The notes below the pieces were generated by a model. That model worked only from the letters and a program-made list of their open reading frames with translations, searched no databases and was not told where the DNA came from. Made by a program: the position numbers and the translations under genes. Shown here in pieces: positions 3,531 to 59,797 of a stretch of 64,000 nt of DNA. The stretch covers positions 1,723,251 through 1,787,250 of the forward strand of contig OY101118.1 in NCBI GenBank assembly GCA_956465555.1, read 5' to 3'. Position 1 is the first letter of the stretch, and each line of letters starts with the position of its first letter. Source of the stretch: Nitzschia sp. pyKryTriq1. Its lineage: Eukaryota; Bacillariophyta; Bacillariophyceae; Bacillariales; Bacillariaceae.

Positions 3531-3821
3531 TGCAGTGTCCTGTCGACGTCATCGGTCCGTCCGTCCCTCCCTCGACGTCATCCTGACACTGCGTGACGTC
3601 ATAGCGTTCCTACTAGTCGTGACACCTCCGTCAATGACTACTGCATTTCATCTAGAGGCGATCCCTCCTTCACAAACTTCACAAGACATCCAAGATCGCC
3701 ATCACCACTACATTTATGATAAGTCGTTCGTGCCCCTGACACTTCACGACTACCTTACGATTACAAAAGATTCATCTCTCAAAAACACCCCAGAAAAATA
3801 GTCTCACTTCTTTTAATTTCA
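3531..3821 (+). repeat. 5' LTR
   Basis: The upstream member of the direct-repeat pair, bounded by TG and CA. A frame of about 90 codons runs through it in both copies, which is more likely chance than a gene. It carries three ACGTCA motifs near its 5' end. Confidence 0.85.
3546..3601 (+). promoter_or_regulatory. ACGTCA/CRE-like motif cluster in LTR
   Basis: ACGTCA occurs at 3546-3551 and 3575-3580, and the full palindrome TGACGTCA at 3594-3601. The same cluster is present in the downstream LTR. This is the core bound by bZIP/CREB-type factors and matches the CO2/cAMP-responsive elements described in diatom carbonic anhydrase promoters. A role as LTR enhancer is inferred from position and repetition only. 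Confidence 0.45.
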
Positions 3822-3831
3822 CTTCGCCAAC

Positions 3832-4731
3832 ATGAAAGAGCGCGTCCACAATTACGTCTCCCGCTGTGACTCTTGCCAACGTAACAAAAACACAGGCCAA
3901 GGATACGGTGAAGTCCCCCCGAAAAACGATGTCGCCGTCCCTTTCGAAGAAGTTGCCGTGGACCTTATCGGTCCGTGGGCCATCACTATCCCCGGCCTCG
4001 GCACTCTCTCCATTCGTGCCCTAACAATCATTGACACGTGCACTACTCTCTGCGAGATTGTTCGCATTGAAGACAAGCAAAGCGAAACAATGGCGCACCT
4101 ATTCGATGTGCAATGGCTATCTCGCTACCCTCGGCCCTTGCGATGCATTCATGATCCCGGCACCGAGTTCGTCGGTACCGCCTTTCAAGCCATGCTCGTC
4201 CACCATGGCATTGAACCTATCCCCTCTACCGTCAAGAATCCACAATCAAATGCCATCTGCGAACGTATCCATGCCACCGTCGGCGACATGCTTCGCACTA
4301 CCCTCAATACGGAACCTCCTCAGGACCTCCCAGCGGCCATCGAACTAATTGACTCCATTCTCGCCTCAGCTCAGTACGCTACTCGCGCTGCCGTGCACAC
4401 TACTATTGGTGTCTCGCCCGGCGCGCTCGTCTTTCAACGCGACATGCTCCTACCGATTCCGATTATTGCCCAGTATAACCAATTCCGCGCCCGCCGACAA
4501 GCACGCATCGACGAAAACGCGCGACGCGAAAATCTTCGCCGCCGCTTCAAAGACTACGAGCCGGGCGACGAAGTACTGGTCCTCTCCTACAAACCCGATA
4601 AGCTCGAACCTCGAGCCACCGGCCCCTTTGTCATTGCCCAAGTCCATGTCAACGGCACCGTCACTATTCAACGCAACGCCCATGTTTTTCAGCGCATTAA
4701 CATCCGGCGCGTCAAGCCTTACCTTCATTAA
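3832..4731 (+). CDS. Ty3/gypsy-type integrase (isolated)
   Basis: A 299-residue open frame starting at an ATG 10 bp after the 5' LTR. It begins inside the N-terminal zinc-binding region (CDSCQRNK holds the final Cys pair; the preceding His pair is missing). The catalytic core follows: VDLIGPW supplies the first Asp, CIHDPGTEF the second and NAICERIH the Glu, so the DDE triad is complete. The end (PGDEVLVLSYKPDKL...GPFVI...RRVKPYLH) matches the C-terminal domain seen in gypsy integrases. The frame has no stop or frameshift, which suggests recent mobility or recent formation. Without its own reverse transcriptase it could move only with help from a complete relative. Whether the ATG is used, or is simply an internal Met left by the deletion, cannot be decided here. 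Confidence 0.85.
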   Translation: MKERVHNYVSRCDSCQRNKNTGQGYGEVPPKNDVAVPFEEVAVDLIGPWAITIPGLGTLSIRALTIIDTCTTLCEIVRIEDKQSETMAHLFDVQWLSRYPRPLRCIHDPGTEFVGTAFQAMLVHHGIEPIPSTVKNPQSNAICERIHATVGDMLRTTLNTEPPQDLPAAIELIDSILASAQYATRAAVHTTIGVSPGALVFQRDMLLPIPIIAQYNQFRARRQARIDENARRENLRRRFKDYEPGDEVLVLSYKPDKLEPRATGPFVIAQVHVNGTVTIQRNAHVFQRINIRRVKPYLH

Positions 4732-25829: not shown

Positions 25830-28737
25830 CTACTGCCGTGCTTCGTTAGGCTGCTGTAGTGATAGGGTGACGCGTACCAAGCGCTTCGGATTCACCTGTT
25901 GCTCACCGTTTACTTCGTGAATACATCCACCGTCAAATGCATCAGCATAGGCGGCCTGTGCGCTTTCGTCGTTTCCCAAAAGTGGCAGCGTTTCCTGCAC
26001 TTTCAAGTAAAGGTTCCGATTGTTTTCATTGTTCTTCCATGCGCTGGGTCTTGATGTCTTTGTGAATCGAGTAAATACCAGTGGGCGCGGCACGAACTTT
26101 CCATTTTCTTCCCACGTGGGGGCATCAACTACGTATTCAATCTTTCCATCCATCAGGTGCTCCATAGATGGCAAAGCTTTCTGCGCCAGGCGGAATGTTT
26201 CAGGGCAGTCAGCCTTTTCGCTAATGATCTCCGACTTTACAACCCATGGTCCGACGCGTGTTTCTTTGTCGTAAGGAACCGCTTATCAAAAAGATCATAC
26301 CAGAAGCATGTTGTGTCAGAAATCATTATTCCAAGCCAAATGGATACGACGAAACACACAACTCCGCTCACCTTGACCAACAAAAGTACCATACATGTCA
26401 TTTTTGGCAAACGGAAAACTGGATGGATATAGGACGTACACTTGCCCATCTTCTTGTAGGTAGACGGCGTAGTCGCGACGACATTGCAACCAACCAGATC
26501 GAAGCTTTGGTGCTTGCACTCGTTCCAAAAAAGACAAGACGCTCTTGTCGCTAAACATTCCAAAGCTAGCACTATGAAGTGCCTCGCGCAGGACGAATTT
26601 CCAAAAGAATACGGCTTGATTTTTCCAAGGTGCAGTTTCAAATACGATTCCCATTGGTCGACGTTTAATACGGTTGAGAAAAGGGCCAATCATGGAATTC
26701 TGCAGCAATGCCCTGCATTCATCACTCTCTACCGCAAGATTGCTCAAATTTTTCATGCTGCCTTCTCCATAGATCTCTTCCAGTAGAGGTATAAGTTGAT
26801 TCCGTAGTTTTCCTCGTGTTGACCAGTGGGGCGTTGTATCTGTCGAAGATGTGGTTGAGTTGCTGAATTCATTTCTATACTATAGGAAGCAATCCATGTG
26901 GTGTGAAAAATCAGATCCAGCGATACTCACCTTTAAAGTAGGGAACCCCAAATTTATGTGCATAGTCAAAGATAAAGGATTTCTCGAGTGGCAACAAGGG
27001 ACGATAAATGACCACTCCGTCGTTGCGTGACACCGCCGTCATTCCACTCAGATCCAATGGCCCACATCCCTTGTGCGCATTCGATAAAACATTCTCTCGT
27101 AAATCCCCCCGATGATGTCCCAGCATGACTCCGATGGCATTATCATGGTCCTTCAATCTTTCCTTGGCCAAAGCAAGGGTTTCTTTGTAGCTCGTGTATC
27201 GTAGATCTCGGGCAATCCGTTCGTAGTCATCCCGGGCCGTGATACCACGGGTGACTTCATCAATTAGTCGACACCTGAAGGAAATATTAAGACGTTCGCA
27301 GTAGCGTCCGACAAAATCAGCTTCCGCTCCGGATTCCGGACGATTGGCGTAGTCAATATGCACGGCCCAGATATCCAAATGGAAACCACAAGATTGGTGA
27401 ACATGAGCCAAAGCAGAAGCAATGACCATACTATCCACGCCTCCGGAAAGAGAGATGATGATTGGAGTAGCTGGCCCGGCGTGGTTGCCGTCCTTGACGG
27501 GTTTGATGCCCTGATCCGCGAGAAATGCTTGAATGGTCTTGACCACGGGATGATTACGTGCTGATGTCATATCTGCATCAAAAGGGAAGGTCTCCAAAAT
27601 ATCTTCATCGGAAAATGTTGTTGGCGAGGATCCATCATTCTCATTCTTATCATCCTCGTTTATTTTGACTTTGCTGTTTCCTGTCCGTCTAGCTTCGTCC
27701 TGCAATAGAGCCATCCTCCGGTTGGTAGCCTTTCGAAACCGTCCCAACATGGCATCCAGTTGTGTCGACAGCCCACCACATTTTTCAATCCGTTGCTGTA
27801 CAAGCTCCACAGTTTCAATAGTACTCGCATGTCGAAACGGCATTAGCGAGAAAATGTACATTTGCAAGGGGATCATCCCGCACCGAATCTCGTCGGCATG
27901 GTCGTCCACCAGCAGTTGCGCTGTTTTCAATGCCCACGCATCCAAGTGAGCCTTGGAAGGCAACAACACAAAAGAAGAAGAATCATCCGTCTTGCTTTCA
28001 TAGTGCCGTTGAATGTGTCTCGAGAATTGATCCAAGACGACAATGGCTGCAACTTTCCCCTGAAATCCGTAAAAACCGTCGTGGCACCATTCGGTCCATC
28101 GTTCCGTGGGTTCCTCCGCGGTAGATGAACCTGTACCTGTACCTGTATTGATACTGGTAGACCCCGCCAATTGTAATAGTAGGCTCTCGAACTGGTCAGC
28201 AATGTCTTGATCCACGCGCTGCCGCAGTGCCGCCGACGAATGAGCAATCATCCACAAATTCTTTTGCGATTCGTCTGGAGAGTACCTGCCGAACCAAAAG
28301 TGTAGCACTTTTTGAATGAGCTTTTGGTTCTCTCGAATTCGGTCTACTTGCACGAGTTGTAGCGCAGATTGCTCGTATGTCAAGTGGTTGTCGTTGATAG
28401 CTTTCGGAATGGATGGATCCTGTGGTTTTATGTCATGGTTGTTGTCGGTGCTTTTGCTGCTGCTGCTGCTGTTCCGCGTACTTGTACTTGTGTTCTCCAA
28501 AAGCAACAATTTCTGAATTTTCTTGCGTATCCATTGAAACACCAGCGGTCGTCGCCGCAAAAGGTTTCGTGCCGTTTCTCGATATTCAGCATCTCTCCAA
28601 AAGCGAAGAGCCAGCAAGAAGACAGCGACAACAGCAGTTCCTAAACCACTACCACCACCACCAGTCTCGATAGCGGAAGAACGACGTCGCAACAAAGAAT
28701 TGCGACGAGGTGGCGCGTACGGCGAAACTGCCGTCAT
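25830..28737 (-). CDS. DUF924 - tRNA(Ile)-lysidine synthetase-like (PP-loop) fusion
   Basis: Three exons (28737-26931, 26839-26372, 26281-25830) give about 908 residues. A hydrophobic segment near residues 29-46 may be a signal anchor. Residues about 140-345 match DUF924: VLHFWFGRYSPDES, then IVVLDQFSRHIQRHYE and MYIFSLMPFRHAST. From about 415 a PP-loop ATPase of the TilS class begins (IIISLSGGVDSMVIASALAH, the SGGxDS loop), continues with AVHIDYANRPES and the LGHHRGDLRENVL motif, and crosses intron 1 into FK-DTTPHWSTRGKLRNQLIP. The first two domains lie in one uninterrupted exon, so the fusion is directly seen. TilS-class enzymes adenylate a tRNA base, usually C34 of tRNA-Ile. In eukaryotes that role belongs to organelles, but membership of the class does not prove the substrate. 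The acceptor of intron 2 (GATAAG) is weak; its phase fits. Confidence 0.88.
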
Positions 28738-29375
28738 GGTGCGATGCTAGATAATGTTGTGCGTTGTGGGTTTACTGTAGAGCGGGAGGTCGTACCATAG
28801 GTACAGTATTGGTATTGTACTTGTGCTGAGCGCAGTACCAGGTACCGGGAAAGTAGAGGTAGCTCTGTCTCGAGACGAGTTCTTCGTCCTTACCGGTACT
28901 GGTACTTGTACCCACCGACAGCCTCCGCCCTCTCCCTCTCCCTCTCTACCGGTACAGCACAAGTGTTAAAATCCGTGAGTTCTCTCTACCGGTAGAGGCA
29001 GTGGCTAGCGGCTCAGGGATTCGGGCTAAAGGACTAATTTGACTGTGGGATAACGAAGTGCGCTATCTTAAGACCCCACCGAGCGAAATACCCGTACTTT
29101 TCGCGCGATTTTTCGCACAATTTTTTTTTTCAATTTCCGGGAAACGCTCAATTAATTTTGCGCATCCCCAAATTCGTTTTCCTCATTCTTTTGCGAGTTC
29201 GAATATGCAGCTGAAAGTTCTGTAGAGGGGGTTGAAGTAGTAGAGATCGAGGGACTAAAATAGTCGTTATTGCACAACATCACGCGGTTCATCGCGTGAT
29301 TTCACCGTGTTGAGGAGTCCAAAAATCGGTCATGGGTCATCAAGCAACAACACATCCGCATGACACACGACGCGG
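28738..29375. other. Spacer, 5' side of Copia fragment
   Basis: GTACCGGTA palindromes (about 28850-28995) are followed by AT-rich sequence with a T run near 29120. No gene. The point where the Copia fragment begins cannot be defined; it is at or before about 29370. Confidence 0.45.
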
Positions 29376-30134: not shown

Positions 30135-30551
30135 CTTGATAAGCTAAAAATACCATTTACTGCGATATACAAATAACGTGGTTGATCTTTCGTAACACGT
30201 GCGTTGGGGTGTAGTCGATCTAGTCTTTTTAATCGAGATAGTCCAATTTGGTATTCCATTGAGTCGTAGATGCACCGAATTTTTGCTTCTCCTGAAATCC
30301 CAGGGTGAAAATTCGGAATTTGAAACCGTCGTGTAGGTAACAGTACAGTACCGGTATGTACTTGTAGCATCGTAGACAATCGCATTGCATTTTTCGTTTT
30401 CATCCTCGACAACAACGTATTGTACACTGTCATTTCCCAACAGCTTCGCGCCATTTCTTTCTCTTTTTCAGACTAGCCTGCATACTTGTACAGTACTCAC
30501 TCCATCCGCACCCTCTCGTTGCTGTCGTTGTCCCTGTCCCTGATATCAGAC
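30135..30551. other. Upstream region of TOP6B
   Basis: No gene is seen. The sequence should contain the promoter of the topoisomerase gene; a GTACCGGTATGTAC palindrome lies near 30348 and a CCCTGTCCCTGA stretch precedes the ATG. Confidence 0.45.
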
Positions 30552-32773
30552 ATGGCCAAAGCTAAAGGTCCTGGCGGCGGCGGCGGCGGTGGTGGTGAAC
30601 AGCAAGTTCAGAAATCTCCCGCCGAGTTCTTTGCCGAAAATCAAGCGATCGCCGGCTTTGATAATCTCGGCAAATCGCTCTACACTTCCATTCGCGAACT
30701 GATTGAAAACTCGCTGGATGCCTGCGAAAGCATCGGCGAACTCCCCACCATCCACGTCAAAGTCCAGGAACTGACCCAAGATGAATTCAACAAAATTAGG
30801 GGAATCTCAGTGAGGACCAAAGACGTGGAGCTCTTTCAAGGCAAAGGCAGCAGTGGTGCTGGTGCTGGCAACGGCAGCAGCGCGGGAAGCGCCAAGAAGG
30901 CCAAGCGGTCGGCCGAAGGCTACTTTCGCATTTCCGTTCGCGACAACGGCTGCGGCATGAGCCACGACAAGATCCCCGACTTGCTGGGCCGCGTCTTGAG
31001 TGGCAGCAAGTACGGCGTTCGCCAGACGAGAGGCAAATTCGGCCTGGGCGCCAAAATGGCTCTGATCTGGAGCAAAAAGAGCACGGGTGTTCCCATTGAA
31101 ATCACCACGGCGCACCGACCCAAGGGAGGCACTGCTGTTCCGCCGCAGTATTCGACTTGCACTCTGGACATTGACATTGCCAAGAACATCCCCATTATTG
31201 TGGCGCACAAGAAACACCCGAATGCGATCAAAAAGTGGCTGGGGACCGAGCTGCAAATACTCATTGCGGGAAATTTCAGTACATACAAAGCCAGAATTGT
31301 GCAATATCTGAGGGAGTTGGCGATTGTGACGCCCTACGCCGCCATTTCTATGGAGTACGAGAATCTGATGGAACCTCATCGGAACTTGCAGATTCGCTAC
31401 GATCGTCGGAGCGAGCAAATGCCGCCTCCCGCCAAACAGGTCAAACACCATCCTTCCAGTGTCAACAATCTAGTGGTGCAGCAACTACTGAATCGTACGA
31501 AACAAACAACGATGACCAAGTTCCTGGAGAAGGAATTGTCGAGTGTCACTGGGCCGGTGGCCAAGCGAATCTGTAAGGAGTGTGGGTGGGACGACGACAT
31601 GGAGCCACATGATCTCACAGATCGGCAGATCACGAAATTGGTGCAAGTTTTAAGGACTGTTCAACTTTTCAAGGCGCCCGATGGATCCTGCTTGAGCCCT
31701 CTGGGAGAATACAATTTGAATCTGGGCATTCGCAAAGTCTTGGAACCGGACTACGTCGCCACCGCCAGGGATCGCCCTTGTGCCTACGAAGGCCATCCCT
31801 TTGTGGTCGAAGCAGCGGTCAGTTTGGGGGGCAAAGATGTCAAAGAAGGGATCAATGTCATGCGATTTGCCAATCGGATTCCTCTATTGTTTGAGTCAGG
31901 GGCTGATGTCTCGACACGTGTCGCTAACACCAAAATCAAATGGAGCAGCTACAAAATTGATCATAAACGAGACAAAATCGGGGTATTTGTCTCGATTGTG
32001 AGTACCAAAATTCCATACAAAGGTCTGTCTGTCTTTCTAGTAAATGTTTTGCTTTGTTTTGTTCGTCATTGCTGAATTGATTGGCATGACTAACCTTGTT
32101 GTCTCCGCTCCGTACGTACATAGGCACGGGCAAGGAGTATATTGGAGATGATATTACGTGAGTCGAGTCAAAGCTCCACGCAAACTTTTTTCGCATTCTG
32201 ACATTATGCGAAAAATTACTTTGTATTCTCACTCTTGCTTGAAACTATTTTGGATTATTGAACAATTGTAGGGAAATCTCACACTCGGTCAAGCGAGCTT
32301 TGCAATCCTGCTGCCAACAACTCAGGGCCCACTTACAAAAACGAAATGCCTTGCGAGACCAAAAGGAACGCAAATCTCGTTTGGCCAAGTATATTCCGGA
32401 TGTGACACGTTCCTTGTTTGGATTGTTAGAGGGAATGCAGCAACGCCATGAAGCCATTAACAACGATACGGCTTCTTCCTCGCCACGCAAACGACCTCGA
32501 CTCGGGACGCAGGAGCTCGCCAAAGTCCAGAATATGGTGGAACAACTACAAAAGGGTGTAATTACGAAAGAACTCATTCAGCAGCGACTAGAGGAAACCG
32601 TCACGATGCAGAATTCGCTGGAAGAACAGGAAGCAGCAGCCAAGAAGGATAATACCGGGACCACGCCATTGTATTTGATCCCTCTCTTTGACCAAATCAA
32701 GCGTGAAGACAATGTCGATGTGATTGATCATCCTCTCTTTAGCTTTCGCCCCCTTCGCCCTGTTTCACCGTAG
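30552..32773 (+). CDS. TOP6B: DNA topoisomerase VI subunit B
   Basis: Exons 30552-32022, 32124-32157 (34 nt) and 32272-32773 give 668 residues, close to plant TOP6B. Subunit B is the GHKL ATPase and transducer of the type IIB topoisomerase, which works with the SPO11-like A subunit; in plants and algae it supports endoreduplication and DNA unlinking in the nucleus. The Bergerat fold is complete: IRELIENSLDACES (N box), ISVRDNGCGM (G1) and GKFGLGAKMALIWSKKS (G2). A Gly/Ser/Lys-rich insertion lies between the N box and G1 (about 98-118), and the extreme N-terminus carries eight glycines. The transducer region ends in KIPYKG-TGKEYIGDDIT-EISHSVKRAL across the two introns, including the short central exon, in correct phase. 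The C-terminus has two charged helices. Confidence 0.95.
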
Positions 32774-53415: not shown

Positions 53416-53928
53416 AGCACTATGAGTACGACGATGATATCTACGCTCGCTTCGCTCGCAGGGCAGAAAAAAAACCCGGCGACGCACGCGTCGTGAGGAC
53501 TACCGGGGCGGTGGCGGGGGCGCCAAAATTAAAAGTCTGAGACCGGCAGGCTAAAGCATGCTGGGATACTTTGAGAAATAAGAATGATGGGCGTTGTTGC
53601 GTGGCGCGAAGACATCATCGCCGAGAGACAGACAGTCGGTCTCTTGCTTCATCATTTTGGACTGTTTGCACTCGACTGCTTTTTTCGGATGATGATGATT
53701 GTTTGATTCTTCGCACAACAATACATTTGTCTGTGGATCGCCACAAATCAGTAACGAAACAGACGTAGGGAACAGAGGAAATCAGGGTGATTCCTCTGAA
53801 GCAACCACACCAGTAGGTACAAGGTAGAAGCACTCTTTTCTTGTCAAGAATTCTACTAGAGCATCGCTGAAGATTGCCTATCAATCGTCATTCAATCGCA
53901 TTGACACGTCAGTAAAAAAGTCGGAACC
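53416..53928. other. Spacer before SBP2-like gene
   Basis: GC-rich sequence with small inverted repeats (GCTCGCTTCGCTCGC; CGACGCACGCGTCGTG near 53480) and then an AT-rich leader of the next gene. No gene. Confidence 0.5.
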
Positions 53929-56784
53929 ATGACTTTGAGTTATGCTGAGGCAATGAAGAAAAAGAGTCCTCCTCCGGTCGACGATTCCTCCAAGCCTGAA
54001 AGAACATCTACACCGCAAATTTCTTTGCAGCAGAATTCTACAAGACAGCTTCAGCCACAGCCACAAAAACCAGGCGTCGCTAGTGTGCCCCAACCTGCAC
54101 ATCTTCGAAATCCAAGAAGCCCGTGGGGACAACCCGGACCACCTATGAAAGTAACCAGCAAGCGAGAAGAAGGCGGAATCAAGAACCTTTCAAAGGTTTC
54201 AAAGGAATTGGAACAAAAAAAGACCTCTGTTCAAATTCTTTCGAAAGAAAAACTGCCGAATCAATCGCCGTTGCCTTGGAAAACAAACAAAGCGAGCAAC
54301 GTACGACAAGCGCTCAAAACGGAGAAAGCATCGGCAACGAGTGGGCCCATACCCAAAGCCGCGCAATCAAGTCAGCACCAACCCAAGAGAAAGAAACCGA
54401 AGCCACAGTTGAAAGCCATGTCGATTGGTGATATGATAGCTGGACGTCCCAACCAGCAAAAGCCAAAGAAAGTACAACAACCACAACCACAACCCAACAA
54501 GTCGAGTCCAAAACCATTGATAGCTACAGACTCAATCAGCGACTTTCCCGCCCTTGGTGCGTCCCCTTCGATGAGACACACACCGAAACTAGCTCCACCC
54601 AAACCCTCCTGGGGAAAGCCAGCAGCTGCCTCAAAGTTGGCGCCAGGACCATCAGCGGCCTCTCAACCCAAGAAAAGTTCTGGAAAGCAGCCCATCAAAA
54701 AAGGTGTCACCAAGTCCGAAAGTGCTACCGCATCATCTGCCACCATGTTCTTCCAGCCTAAGTCAGATGCTCCACGGGAAGGGGACGAACATCAGTTGTT
54801 GCGTCTATTGCAAGATGGGAATGTTTACCAGAAAAAGGGTCGCCAACGTCTTCATCCTCGCAAAAAGAAATTCACAGCCCTAAAGAAAAAAGTGTTGCAG
54901 GAACGCCTACAGAAGTGGTATGAAATGCACCCTGAAGAGAAGAATGATGATACGACAACGACGGCGGCCGCAAATGCGACCCAAGCTTCATGCTCTGTTT
55001 GTATTTATAACTATGTTCATCCCGATGATTTGGAAGACGATGATGAATACAATGAAATATTGACTAATTTGCGGGATTTGACAAAGGCAAACAGATTGGG
55101 ACCCGTAAAAGAGATCTTTGTTCCACGGGTAGATCGGACCGATACGTATCCTGCCTTTGTCCGTTTCGAGTCTGCAAAGGACGCCGCAGCAGCACAAGCC
55201 TGCTTGGAAGGTCTCGTTGTGGGTGGAGAGGCGCTGCGAGTGATTCTAGTGACTGAGTCGGCCAACACAGGCTCGGATTGGAAAAAGAGTATCCTTTTAG
55301 CAGAGTCGTCTATGGCCTCGGGGGGGTCAACAGTTGCAGAGACATCAATTAAGGGAAATGCAGTCATTGAGCTGTCAGGGATCCTTACTGAAGACGACTA
55401 CGGGGATGAAGAATGTATGAGCGAAAGTTTAGGAGACCTCCGAGAAATGGCTGCGAAATTTGGAAAGCTACAGAGTCTAGAACCCAAGGGAACAAAAGAC
55501 GGTGGAGTTCTTCTTCAATACGAAGCAGGTCCCAAAGAAGTAGAAGCTATTTTTGAGGGTCTCAAGAATACGACGATTGGAGGCAAGCAACTTTCCGTCA
55601 CAACGGTGACGACTAGCTCGCGAGTTGGTCGGTCCGTAGTAGTTCTAGAGAACGTTTTAACCGAGGATGATCTGGAAGACGAGGACTGTCTGAATGAGTC
55701 AATTGGCGACATTCGAGAACTGGCAGGGCGTCATGGAGTAGTTATCGACGTGCAAGTTATGGATAAAGCAGTGAGGCTAATCTATGAAGGACCGCCTTCT
55801 GTGGCAGAGAACAGTGCTAAGCAATTGAATGGTATGACCTTGGCTGGCGAGCCAGTAGTCGCCCATGTTCAAACAGATCCGAATCCCGGAGAATCAATTC
55901 AGCAAGGAAAATATCTGTACCTTTACAATATACTCACCGAGGACGATCTGGAAGACGAAGATTGCTTACAAGAGAGTCTGAATGATATTCGAGCTCTGGC
56001 TTCAAAACACGGTACGGTTCGAGAACTTGGGGTCGTTGAAGAAGAAGGCACCAGCCTTGTGCGAATTTCTTACGCAGATGAAGAGGTGGGTGTGGTCAAA
56101 TCTTCCATGAAGGAATTCGATGGAATGGTCGTTGGTGGTCTTATTGTCACCGCAAGATCACGTCTATTGCTGGACCAGGAAGAAAAAGCTCAGGAGAAGC
56201 AGACCATGGCAGCGGATGAGGATGCTGTAAAACGCAAACCCGACCCTGAAAACGACTCACCAAGTAAGAAGGCCAGAACCGACGACATGAAACCCCTATA
56301 TTCTGGAGATAAACTCATTCCGGAGCGATTCGCCCAGGCGAAACGAGTTCCTAAAGTACCAACTGCGGCTGGACCTCGTGAATATGCGAACCAAGTGAAC
56401 GACGAGCGAGTGCGCCCACTTTTGACAGAGATGCTGGGTGAATTAATGAGACTCCAGAAGCGAGCGGTCGAGGAGAATAACACTAAAGCCAAGAGACGCC
56501 TCGTCTTGGGTCTCCGCGAAGTCGCTAGAGGAATTCGTTCGCACAAAGTCAAACTTGTTATCATAGCGAACAATTTGGACGAATACGGCGCGATCGATGA
56601 AAAACTCCAGGAAATTATCGATCTGGCACACAACGAAGGCGTCCCCCTTTTCTTTGAATTTACGAAGCGAAGTCTCGGTAAGGCGGTAGGAAAGAGTATC
56701 AAGGTTGCCGTAGTAGGTATCCAGAACGCGGAGGGAGCACATCAACCTTTCAAAAAGTTGGTTTCTCTTGCGCCTAAAATATGA
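53929..56784 (+). CDS. SECISBP2: SECIS-binding protein 2-like with four RRM/UHM-like domains
   Basis: A single-exon protein of 951 residues. The C-terminus (about 818-951) is the L7Ae-type RNA-binding domain of SBP2: LLTEMLGELMRLQKRAVEEN, KAKRRLVLGLREVARGI, LVIIANNLDEYGAIDEKLQE and LFFEFTKRSLGKAVGKS. SBP2 binds the SECIS element in selenoprotein mRNAs and recruits the Sec-specific elongation factor, so that UGA is read as selenocysteine. The N-terminal 290 residues are Lys/Pro/Ser/Gln-rich and disordered. Between them lie four repeats (starting near 355, 477, 568 and 661), each with an RRM-like betaalphabeta pattern. Repeats 2-4 share N/G-ILTEDDLEDEDCLxES and DIRELA..HG, the acidic helix pattern of U2AF-homology (UHM) domains such as U2AF65. 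A bipartite basic motif (KRKPDPENDSPSKKAR) lies near 770. The SBP2 domain is confident; the UHM reading is by pattern. Confidence 0.92.
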   Translation: MTLSYAEAMKKKSPPPVDDSSKPERTSTPQISLQQNSTRQLQPQPQKPGVASVPQPAHLRNPRSPWGQPGPPMKVTSKREEGGIKNLSKVSKELEQKKTSVQILSKEKLPNQSPLPWKTNKASNVRQALKTEKASATSGPIPKAAQSSQHQPKRKKPKPQLKAMSIGDMIAGRPNQQKPKKVQQPQPQPNKSSPKPLIATDSISDFPALGASPSMRHTPKLAPPKPSWGKPAAASKLAPGPSAASQPKKSSGKQPIKKGVTKSESATASSATMFFQPKSDAPREGDEHQLLRLLQDGNVYQKKGRQRLHPRKKKFTALKKKVLQERLQKWYEMHPEEKNDDTTTTAAANATQASCSVCIYNYVHPDDLEDDDEYNEILTNLRDLTKANRLGPVKEIFVPRVDRTDTYPAFVRFESAKDAAAAQACLEGLVVGGEALRVILVTESANTGSDWKKSILLAESSMASGGSTVAETSIKGNAVIELSGILTEDDYGDEECMSESLGDLREMAAKFGKLQSLEPKGTKDGGVLLQYEAGPKEVEAIFEGLKNTTIGGKQLSVTTVTTSSRVGRSVVVLENVLTEDDLEDEDCLNESIGDIRELAGRHGVVIDVQVMDKAVRLIYEGPPSVAENSAKQLNGMTLAGEPVVAHVQTDPNPGESIQQGKYLYLYNILTEDDLEDEDCLQESLNDIRALASKHGTVRELGVVEEEGTSLVRISYADEEVGVVKSSMKEFDGMVVGGLIVTARSRLLLDQEEKAQEKQTMAADEDAVKRKPDPENDSPSKKARTDDMKPLYSGDKLIPERFAQAKRVPKVPTAAGPREYANQVNDERVRPLLTEMLGELMRLQKRAVEENNTKAKRRLVLGLREVARGIRSHKVKLVIIANNLDEYGAIDEKLQEIIDLAHNEGVPLFFEFTKRSLGKAVGKSIKVAVVGIQNAEGAHQPFKKLVSLAPKI

Positions 56785-56871: not shown

Positions 56872-59797
56872 TTACCGACGTGGGGCTCCAAAAGGGCTAC
56901 TGGCGCTGCCTCCGCCAAACCCACCCGAGAACTGACTACTACCGCCAGAAAAGCCTCTTCCACCTCCCCCGCTGTTCCCAAAACCACCACCACTACCACG
57001 TCCACCACTACTATACCCACCACTACCACTCGCGCCAAAGCTACCACCACCACCACTGCTGCCGCCTCCCGTCTCATGCGAGAATTTGCATGAGTCCCCA
57101 AACTTGCATCGTCCCTGGGCAAAGAACCGGCACGGTGGTTTACCACCATTCCCGCGTCCGCCCCCGCCGCCAAAATTAGACATATTGTCATTATTGTTGC
57201 CACCACCAAACCCTCCTCCACCACTTCCGAATGGTACGCTATTGTTTGAAACTCCAAGTGGCGATGGATTGGAGGGTTGGACGGCACCAAAGGGCGATGT
57301 TCCGCTAGCTGGTGCGTTTGAGTTCCCACCAAATCCTCGACCACCCGACGAACTCCCAAACGGTGCGCTGTTTTTTGAAACTCCGAACGGTGACGGATTG
57401 GAGGATATACCACTACCGAATGGCGACTGCGCCGCGGTACCAGGAATAGAGCCATGACCAAACGGAGAAGGCGCAGCTCCAAACGGCGACTTCGCGGCCA
57501 GCCCTGATGAAACAAACGGGTTCCCAGCAGAGTTACTTGACGAATTCACAGAGGAGCCAAACGGATTGCTGGCACCAGACGAGGGGGCTCCGAAGCCTCC
57601 AGCTCCAGTCGGTGCCGCACCAAATGGGTTGCTTTGAGGTGTGGACTCGGCAGTCATAGCACCAAATCCACCGGTCGTGCCGGAGTTCGTTGAGCCAAAT
57701 CCACCCACGGTAGAAGAAGACACCCCAAATGGATTGGAGACACCCCCTCCATATGGTGACGCAGAAGAGGTTGAAGACGACGGCTGGGACGCGCCGCCGA
57801 ACGGATTGTTAGGAGCCGAAGACGGTCCAGTAGACGTCTCGAATGGGTTTGCGGAAGAAGTGGGTGCCTTCATGCTTCCAAAGGCACTTGTAGTAGAGGA
57901 AGCAACAAACGGTGCTCCTACGCCACTAGTGCTTCCATGAACTTGGGCTCCTCCAGCTCCGTAGTAAAGTTCTGACAGCGCCCGTTCCGGTAAAGTCGTT
58001 CGAAATTTCTCTAGCCCGCCCTCCATCAATTTCGCCAAACGAATGGAACTGGGTTTTCCAATGGGGCCTTCGTCTAACCGCGAGATAACGTCCTCGGTGA
58101 TCGTCTTTACATGCTTTTCAAAGGAGTCAGCATGCTTGTTCGCCAGCATGTGACCTGCAGCTGTCAAAAAGCCATGAAGGACGGGCGCAGTCAACAACGG
58201 TAGCGGTGCCGTGGGAGGAGGCGGAAGGAGGTCCAAGAATCGAGTCAACCAGTCGACTGCCCCACGATGACCTCCCAACAATACATGAGAAGATGGCAAC
58301 GAAGACATGATATTGGCAACCAACGCGACAATGTTCTTCAAGGAGGAAGGTAGATCAAAGCGAAGAGTAAGAGAAAGAACGCATACATCGGATCCGTGAT
58401 GTCATTATCCCAACGATACAACTCACCTCAGTTCGGCTCAGAAATCGATCAAACGTTTCATATTCTCCGTTTTTTCCTTTGAGCATACCGAGACTCGACA
58501 TGAGTTCTTCTTCGCTTGCATCTGAAGCAGGGGTGGGCAAGGTTGGAATAGCTGTCGGGCACACCGTATAAATATGCGCCGCCAAAATGGGTACCAGTTC
58601 CTTGTTTTCCAGGGAGATCATCGCTAACATGTTCGCCAGTGGGAACCCATCTCCTCGGGGCCCATTGAAGCCTTCTGCCTGGACTCTTTGAATCGTATTG
58701 GATGCCACAAGATCGACCAAATACCGTTTCCCCCGCGCCATGTCGGGCGTGAAACCTGGTTCTTTGCGCTCGAGCGCTTGCTTGATCTGTTCGTCTTCTG
58801 CCCGCGCTTCCGTTATTGCCCGCGACACCTCCGAGGCCACTTCTTGAATTTTGGCCGCATTCTCACTGAGGGTATTGATCTTTCCTCGGACAATCTTTTT
58901 CATACCGAGTCGTCGTTTGGAGACTGCCTTGTTGTTGTCGAAGGGTTCAATCGAGTCCCTGACCGCCACTAACTGGGTCACCAGCTTCTTAGCTTTGTGA
59001 ACGTACTCGTTTTTGGCCTCCCGCGCCTCGCGTTTTCGTTCTTCTTGACGCAATTTGTCCTCTTGTGCCGCTCGCCGCCTTTGTTCTTTTTCTTCTAAGG
59101 CTAGCTGATCTGCTTGCTGTTGTTTGAGTTGTTTTTCACGAGTGATTTTTTCTTCGTGTATTCGTTTTGCCGTCTCTTCTTGTTCGAGTTGACGGATCTT
59201 TAGAACATCGGCCGCCTCTCGCTCGAGTTCCAAACAAACGGTCTGAAGTGCTTTCGTGGTGGCTGCATGTTCTTGTTCCATGCGTTGTCGCTCGAGCTGC
59301 ACTTTTTGTTGGACGAGGCGCGTCGTTTCCTGGAAGGATGGCAGCGGGTTGGTGGGCGTGGGAGGAGGAAGTGTCGCCGTCAAGGACCCCCGTTGGAGCA
59401 TTCGCTGCAGCAACAGGACCTCGTCCTCCTCCATACTGATACCATAGTCTAGTTCAAGTTTTTCCTCGTCCGAAATTGGTGCTCGGTACTTTAGGAGCGC
59501 TGGCGTGGAGGCCGCCGGAATGTACGAGGAGAGAGGAGGATAAGTTTGATATTGGTGCTGGTGTTGGTAGGGAGTCATCAAAAAGGCATACTCGTCGTCG
59601 TCGCCGTCGTCAAGTGCGTAGGTGCTGCGTCCAGGAGACGTCAGGATCAAGGCCGAAGGAGGTTCCAATCCAATCCAGGTCCGGCCCCACTGCGCCAAGC
59701 CAAATCCGAGGGGATGTGCCGGCTCCTCTTCGTTGTCACCACAGCCGAACAAATCCTCACCCTCATCCTCGTCGTTGGAAAGACTGAATCGAGGCAT
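56872..59797 (-). CDS. GLE1: GLE1 fused to FG repeats and a NUP42-type CCCH zinc finger
   Basis: Exons 59797-58427 and 58335-56872 give 944 residues. The frame is open to a TTG further out, but the first ATG (MPRFSL) is used. Residues about 120-280 form a coiled coil with a strongly charged RRAAQEDKLRQEERKRE part. The GLE1 helical domain follows (KRRLGMKKIVRGKINTLSEN, GFPLANMLAMISLENKELVP, AHIYTVCPTAIP) and crosses the 91-nt intron as FDRFLSRTE-NIVALVANIM and GHRGAVDWLTRFLDLLP. From about 607 to 850 there are many PFG/NPFG repeats in Ser/Gly-rich sequence. A CCCH finger stands at 859-877 (C-x7-C-x5-C-x3-H). GLE1 with IP6 activates the DEAD-box ATPase DBP5 at the nuclear pore to release mRNA. 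NUP42 is normally a separate FG/CCCH protein that binds GLE1. Here both are in one reading frame. The gene is convergent with the SBP2-like gene, 87 bp apart. Confidence 0.9.

Follow-up and report, generated by a model that had tools for sequence, protein, structure and literature searches.

A GLE1 protein with a C-terminal FG-repeat and CCCH-finger tail in one reading frame in Nitzschia sp. pyKryTriq1

The biochemical hallmarks of GLE1 are the binding of NUP155 through its N-terminus and the activation of DDX19/Dbp5. Its partner in animals, NUP42, is a protein separate from GLE1 that has FG repeats and a CCCH finger, and the finger stands at the N-terminus of the FG protein. Both CCCH fingers and FG repeats are common. 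An engineered yeast Gle1-Nup42 FG fusion was reportedly made by Adams, Terry and Wente in 2014. According to the relevant passage of a review, yeast that had lost the FG regions of Nup42 and Nup159 was rescued when the Nup42 FG domain was fused to the Gle1 C-terminus (PMC9132428). Yeast Nup42 and Nup159 are given as plain "FG" in the table of PMC4198930, and in the model outlined in PMC7553267 the FG domains of both bind Mex67-Mtr2 and position the mRNP for Dbp5. The sections of PMC5998080 on Nup42 describe a Gle1-binding motif at its C-terminus, which folds on Gle1 in yeast, human, and Chaetomium. Besides stabilising Gle1 in yeast and human, this motif serves to anchor the FG repeats near Gle1 (section 8). 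A 2026 preprint reports that Gle1 is almost lost from the pores of heat-shocked nup42-deletion cells, and a nuclear role of Nup42 is proposed there (PMC12918808).

By a count of the columns in the table of Neumann et al. (2010), Gle1 is marked for two diatoms and an oomycete, and Nup42 has 0 occurrences in the main text of that study (PMC2951903). Toxoplasma Gle1 was described as needed for mRNA export in a 2025 preprint, where Nup42 has 0 occurrences (PMC12407827). Among the best matches in the open-licence PMC literature, as far as their available text goes, none was found to describe a GLE1 that ends in an FG/CCCH tail. A scan for the GLE1 domain gave 10 pattern matches in viral contigs and 70 in prokaryotic genome contigs, with 0 confirmed in either, as expected for such collections.

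The window analysed here (the whole 64-kb stretch of DNA) contains a GLE1 gene of two exons, and it is well supported that its 944-aa product is a GLE1 with a C-terminal FG/CCCH tail in one reading frame (Table 1). The order along the protein is an acidic N-terminus, a coiled-coil-like stretch, the GLE1 domain, the FG region, one CCCH finger, and a G/FG tail. The two exons and the intron at 58336-58426 proposed in the earlier note were reproduced to the exact coordinate. Splice pairs were examined with donors within 58400-58440 and acceptors within 58320-58370, which gave four GT-AG pairs. The frame stays open into the FG/CCCH part with two of these four, the 79-nt and the 91-nt introns, and the latter was taken because of its GTGAGT donor and the gapless alignment to human GLE1 at the join. 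The reading frame of exon 2 is open for 487 codons, compared with 11 and 21 stops in the remaining two frames of the same strand. None of the donors GTAAGT, GTGAGT, GTTAGT, GTACGT, GTATGT, and GTGCGT lies inside exon 2, and there are nine weaker GTNNGT sites, counting one GTCAGT near the exon end at 56936; an extra weak intron within exon 2 is unlikely. Since exon 2 holds the end of GLE1, the FG region, and the finger in the same frame, the join between GLE1 and the tail is independent of the intron, and the earlier claim of GLE1, FG repeats, and CCCH finger in one reading frame is shown from this exon alone. A single-sequence structure prediction of exon 2 alone was poor (mean pLDDT 38.6), with helices to residue 124 of 487 and none further.

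Table 1. Features of the GLE1 gene in window coordinates; the start codon is at 59797-59795 and the stop codon ends at 56872
Feature	Coordinates	Strand	Description
Exon 1	58427..59797	-	ATG, acidic N-terminus, coiled-coil-like stretch (~151-285), first two thirds of GLE1 domain (residues 284-457)
Intron	58336..58426	-	91 nt, GT..AG, GTGAGT...TTGAAG, phase 0
Exon 2	56872..58335	-	Last part of GLE1 domain, FG region, CCCH finger, G/FG tail, stop codon
C-terminal part of GLE1 domain and short stretch after it	57937..58335	-	Residues 458-590; alignment score 75 to human GLE1
FG-repeat region	57133..57936	-	Residues 591-858; 18 FG dipeptides
CCCH zinc finger C-x7-C-x5-C-x3-H	57076..57132	-	Residues 859-877; Pfam and regex
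G/FG-rich C-terminal tail	56875..57075	-	Residues 878-944; 4 FG dipeptides

The earlier note had proposed a search of the translated model with the GLE1 and CCCH profiles, and both families were recovered on the spliced product. Pfam GLE1 (PF07817) matches residues 284-536 at 75.9 bits, where the cut-off is 24 (E 4e-21), spanning profile positions 12-249 of 250 (238 of the 250), and zf-CCCH_4 matches the finger (residues 857-877, E 3.7e-9). Exon 1 alone reaches 56.1 bits with PF07817 over profile positions 12-168. Exon 2 alone has no Pfam GLE1 match at E up to 0.1, and the seven families that it does match all lie on the finger. When residues 458-590 are aligned to the human GLE1 fragment, which is the same stretch that had earlier been matched by the spliced protein itself, the score is 75, while 2000 shuffles average 27 with a maximum of 53. 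As a negative control, the FG region scores 28 against this fragment, a value equalled or exceeded by 381 of 2000 shuffles.

PDB chain 6b4f_B (GLE1) aligns to residues 384-576 with E 2e-7. We take this chain to be human GLE1 and 3peu_B to be yeast GLE1, as the search output names the molecule only. The human label is supported by four residues named in PMC5998080 (H523, R569, V617, and I684), all of which land on the correct letters in 6b4f_B at a chain-to-protein offset of 381. Yeast GLE1 was absent from the matches of the single-sequence PDB search (maximum E 10); a profile of this protein and the human fragment matched 3peu_B with E 5.4e-10 and 9lt9_A ("mRNA export factor GLE1") with E 3e-4. 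The likeness to human and yeast GLE1 lies in the C-terminal GLE1 domain. Only 8 residues of the 317-residue human chain follow the aligned part, and the chain presumably stops at the natural C-terminus of human GLE1, whereas the protein described here adds a 354-residue FG/CCCH tail. Human R569 is conserved as R455, the third-last residue of exon 1. In the section of PMC5998080 that treats this arginine, it sits in an intramolecular network and is altered in disease. Section 9 of that paper names the IP6-pocket positions of GLE1, two of which can be aligned: they are S366 and H408 here, E482 and H523 in human, and K333 and R374 in yeast, the yeast numbering being our own, with R374 placed on the arginine of the aligned stretch and the other two named positions outside the alignment. 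These residues hint that the IP6 dependence of this GLE1 may be weak or absent. The DDX19-contact lysines named in the same source (PMC5998080) precede the part aligned to the human chain. Before the GLE1 domain, residues 151-285 comprise 14 K, 15 R, 23 E, 18 Q, 3 P, and 0 G, so that K/R/E/Q make up 70 of the 135 residues. The coiled coil of the earlier note stands as a K/R/E/Q-rich stretch, coiled-coil-like as judged by composition only.

Residues 591-944 contain 23 FG dipeptides, and 20,000 composition-keeping shuffles averaged 8.0 and never gave more than 19, so the dipeptides as a chance outcome of composition were rejected. One FG lies within the finger and 22 lie outside it. The context is PFG in 12 of the 23, and neither GLFG nor FxFG is present in these residues. 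In 34-residue windows wholly within 591-858, the proportion of G/S/P/T/N/A/Q is 73.5-91%, and it is at least 79% in those wholly within 879-944; it goes down to 50% over the finger and to 62% over the GLE1/FG border. The finger has the same spacing as given in the earlier note and also matches Pfam zf-CCCH (E 1.5e-7). In the PDB it comes closest to tristetraproline (E 2.2e-5) and CPSF4 (E 3.7e-4), among 35 sequences at E up to 1, and these matches say that it is probably a generic CCCH finger rather than one of the NUP42 type. The earlier description of an FG region followed by the finger, in reversed order relative to human NUP42, is true of the 18 FG dipeptides that come first, but it leaves out the 67-residue G/FG-rich tail, where four more follow the finger.

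The earlier note had read the protein as GLE1 fused to NUP42. Its first half, FG repeats and a CCCH finger on GLE1 in one frame, stands, but the fusion with NUP42 is only partly supported. The likeness to NUP42/Rip1/hCG1 is in the plain FG repeats and a CCCH finger as in the animal protein, and an FG-repeat region is clearly present. In contrast to NUP42, the finger is not N-terminal, the tail is not a separate polypeptide but a covalent part of GLE1, and no Gle1-binding motif turned up. It was looked for in the 34-residue windows described above and by searching residues 572-944 against the PDB at E up to 10, which returned 11 matches, all on the finger and none named Nup42. As the motif is short and divergent and the search had no positive control, this result only leans towards its absence. 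Because this motif was not found, the protein is, on its sequence, classed as GLE1 and not as NUP42.

We read the protein as a GLE1 orthologue carrying its own FG/CCCH tail, which probably does in cis what the FG region of NUP42 does in trans. The FG dipeptides of the tail would capture Mex67/NXF1-bound mRNPs, and the CCCH finger may touch RNA. The tail would keep export-receptor-bound mRNPs beside the GLE1-activated helicase, so that the receptor could be stripped off next to the activator and a separately anchored NUP42 would not be needed to supply those FG repeats. As the tail is covalently attached, we propose that the Gle1-binding motif of NUP42 is no longer needed as an anchor. The cis reading is favoured by the GLE1 family match, the similarity to solved structures, the GLE1 and FG/CCCH parts in one exon, and the excess of FG. 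It is further favoured by the FG type, which is plain (not GLFG or FxFG) as in yeast Nup42 and Nup159, and by the engineered yeast fusion, which has the same topology with the FG domain at the C-terminus of GLE1; the protein described here is natural and additionally has a CCCH finger. Moreover, anchoring FG repeats near Gle1 is one role of the Nup42 binding motif (PMC5998080). Several points count against so simple a reading. The Gle1-stabilising role of the motif in yeast and human is left unexplained by it, and exon 2 alone is without a Pfam GLE1 match. NUP42 may also do more than FG tethering, given the loss of Gle1 from the pores and the nuclear role proposed in PMC12918808, and FG dipeptides might have some other function in a tail this rich in G/S. 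If the cis reading is right, nature has combined in one molecule the helicase activator of the final mRNA export step and an FG region putatively capable of mRNP capture. If relatives lack NUP42, the two proposed NUP42 roles, FG tethering and GLE1 stabilising, would become separable and testable in a non-model eukaryote.

As to how the tail arose, there is a serious but not quite even chance that low-complexity FG repeats and a generic CCCH finger were added to GLE1 in separate events, in which case a normal NUP42 may persist elsewhere in the genome. Tandem repeats in the tail DNA (56983-57053) could have given rise to G/S-rich repeats, several CCCH families match the finger, and CCCH fingers recur in mRNA export factors such as trypanosome Mex67, where one is described at the N-terminus in the relevant part of PMC8421043. 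However, such independent gains must account for both NUP42 features landing on the very binding partner of NUP42.

Alternatively, a NUP42 gene, with its finger and FG part, was joined behind GLE1 and the binding motif was then lost as redundant, a true gene fusion that we consider conceivable though doubtful. The CCCH finger and the FG repeats do occur together, and the G/FG tail after the finger means that the finger-then-FG order is also present. Yet had a NUP42 with a leading finger simply been appended head to tail, 18 of the 22 FG dipeptides that lie outside the finger would not come before it; the Gle1-binding motif was not found in the tail, and the best PDB matches of the finger are generic CCCH proteins. 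In a 2005 survey, Gle1 and not Cg1/Nup42 is marked for diatoms according to our column reading of its flattened table, but the survey is EST-based and its authors caution that absence means little (PMC1257468). It is unlikely, in our view, that NUP42 is gone as a separate nucleoporin in this lineage, with its FG and finger parts moved to the C-terminus of GLE1, the binding motif lost, and GLE1 stable without its partner. If this were true, it would be a natural repeat of the experiment built in yeast, and the main job of NUP42 would be placing FG repeats next to GLE1.

Two overlapping products, the long mRNA plus a transcript starting inside exon 2 that gives a separate FG/CCCH protein, are very improbable. 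The sole support for them is that the tail portion of exon 2 has methionines at residues 612, 684, and 842, while exon 2 has no consensus GTAAGT/GTGAGT donor and the long product is expected anyway from GLE1 and FG in one open frame. That the tail comes only from an FG/CCCH mRNA of its own was discounted, since exon 2 has GLE1 and the tail in a single frame, although overlapping transcripts are possible.

No second NUP42 candidate was seen within the 64-kb window. A CCCH-like regex gave four matches in it, and the three that lie outside the GLE1 gene are near no FG cluster. The one other FG-dense stretch (5 per 150 residues) is at ~54.2-54.7 kb on the minus strand, where it is antisense to the neighbouring gene and stop-interrupted. 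The window gave no tRNA, and no RNA family in it reached the gathering score. Elsewhere in the window, a retroelement integrase-like stretch lies at 3817-4728 on the plus strand (rve E 2.2e-7 and H2C2 E 2.7e-5, both slightly under the curated cut-offs), and topoisomerase VI subunit B (transducer domain E 5.7e-41) was identified at 30477-32072, also on the plus strand. At 26914-28746 on the minus strand, one open frame contains DUF924 (E 4.2e-11) and a TilS-type tRNA lysidine synthetase domain (E 1.5e-29). The gene at 53905-56784 on the plus strand (first ATG 53929) is convergent with the GLE1 gene, and 87 bases separate the two stop codons. Its single open frame joins a U2AF65-UHM-like sequence (PDB U2AF65 E 1.2e-5 at residues 365-449; NCBIfam U2AF_lg E 5.6e-19, under the curated cut-off) and a C-terminal L7Ae domain of the SECIS-binding-protein-2 type (E 1e-22), with three further similar UHM-like repeats found by regex at residues 494, 585, and 677. 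Such a pairing of splicing-type with selenocysteine-type RNA-binding domains is unusual.
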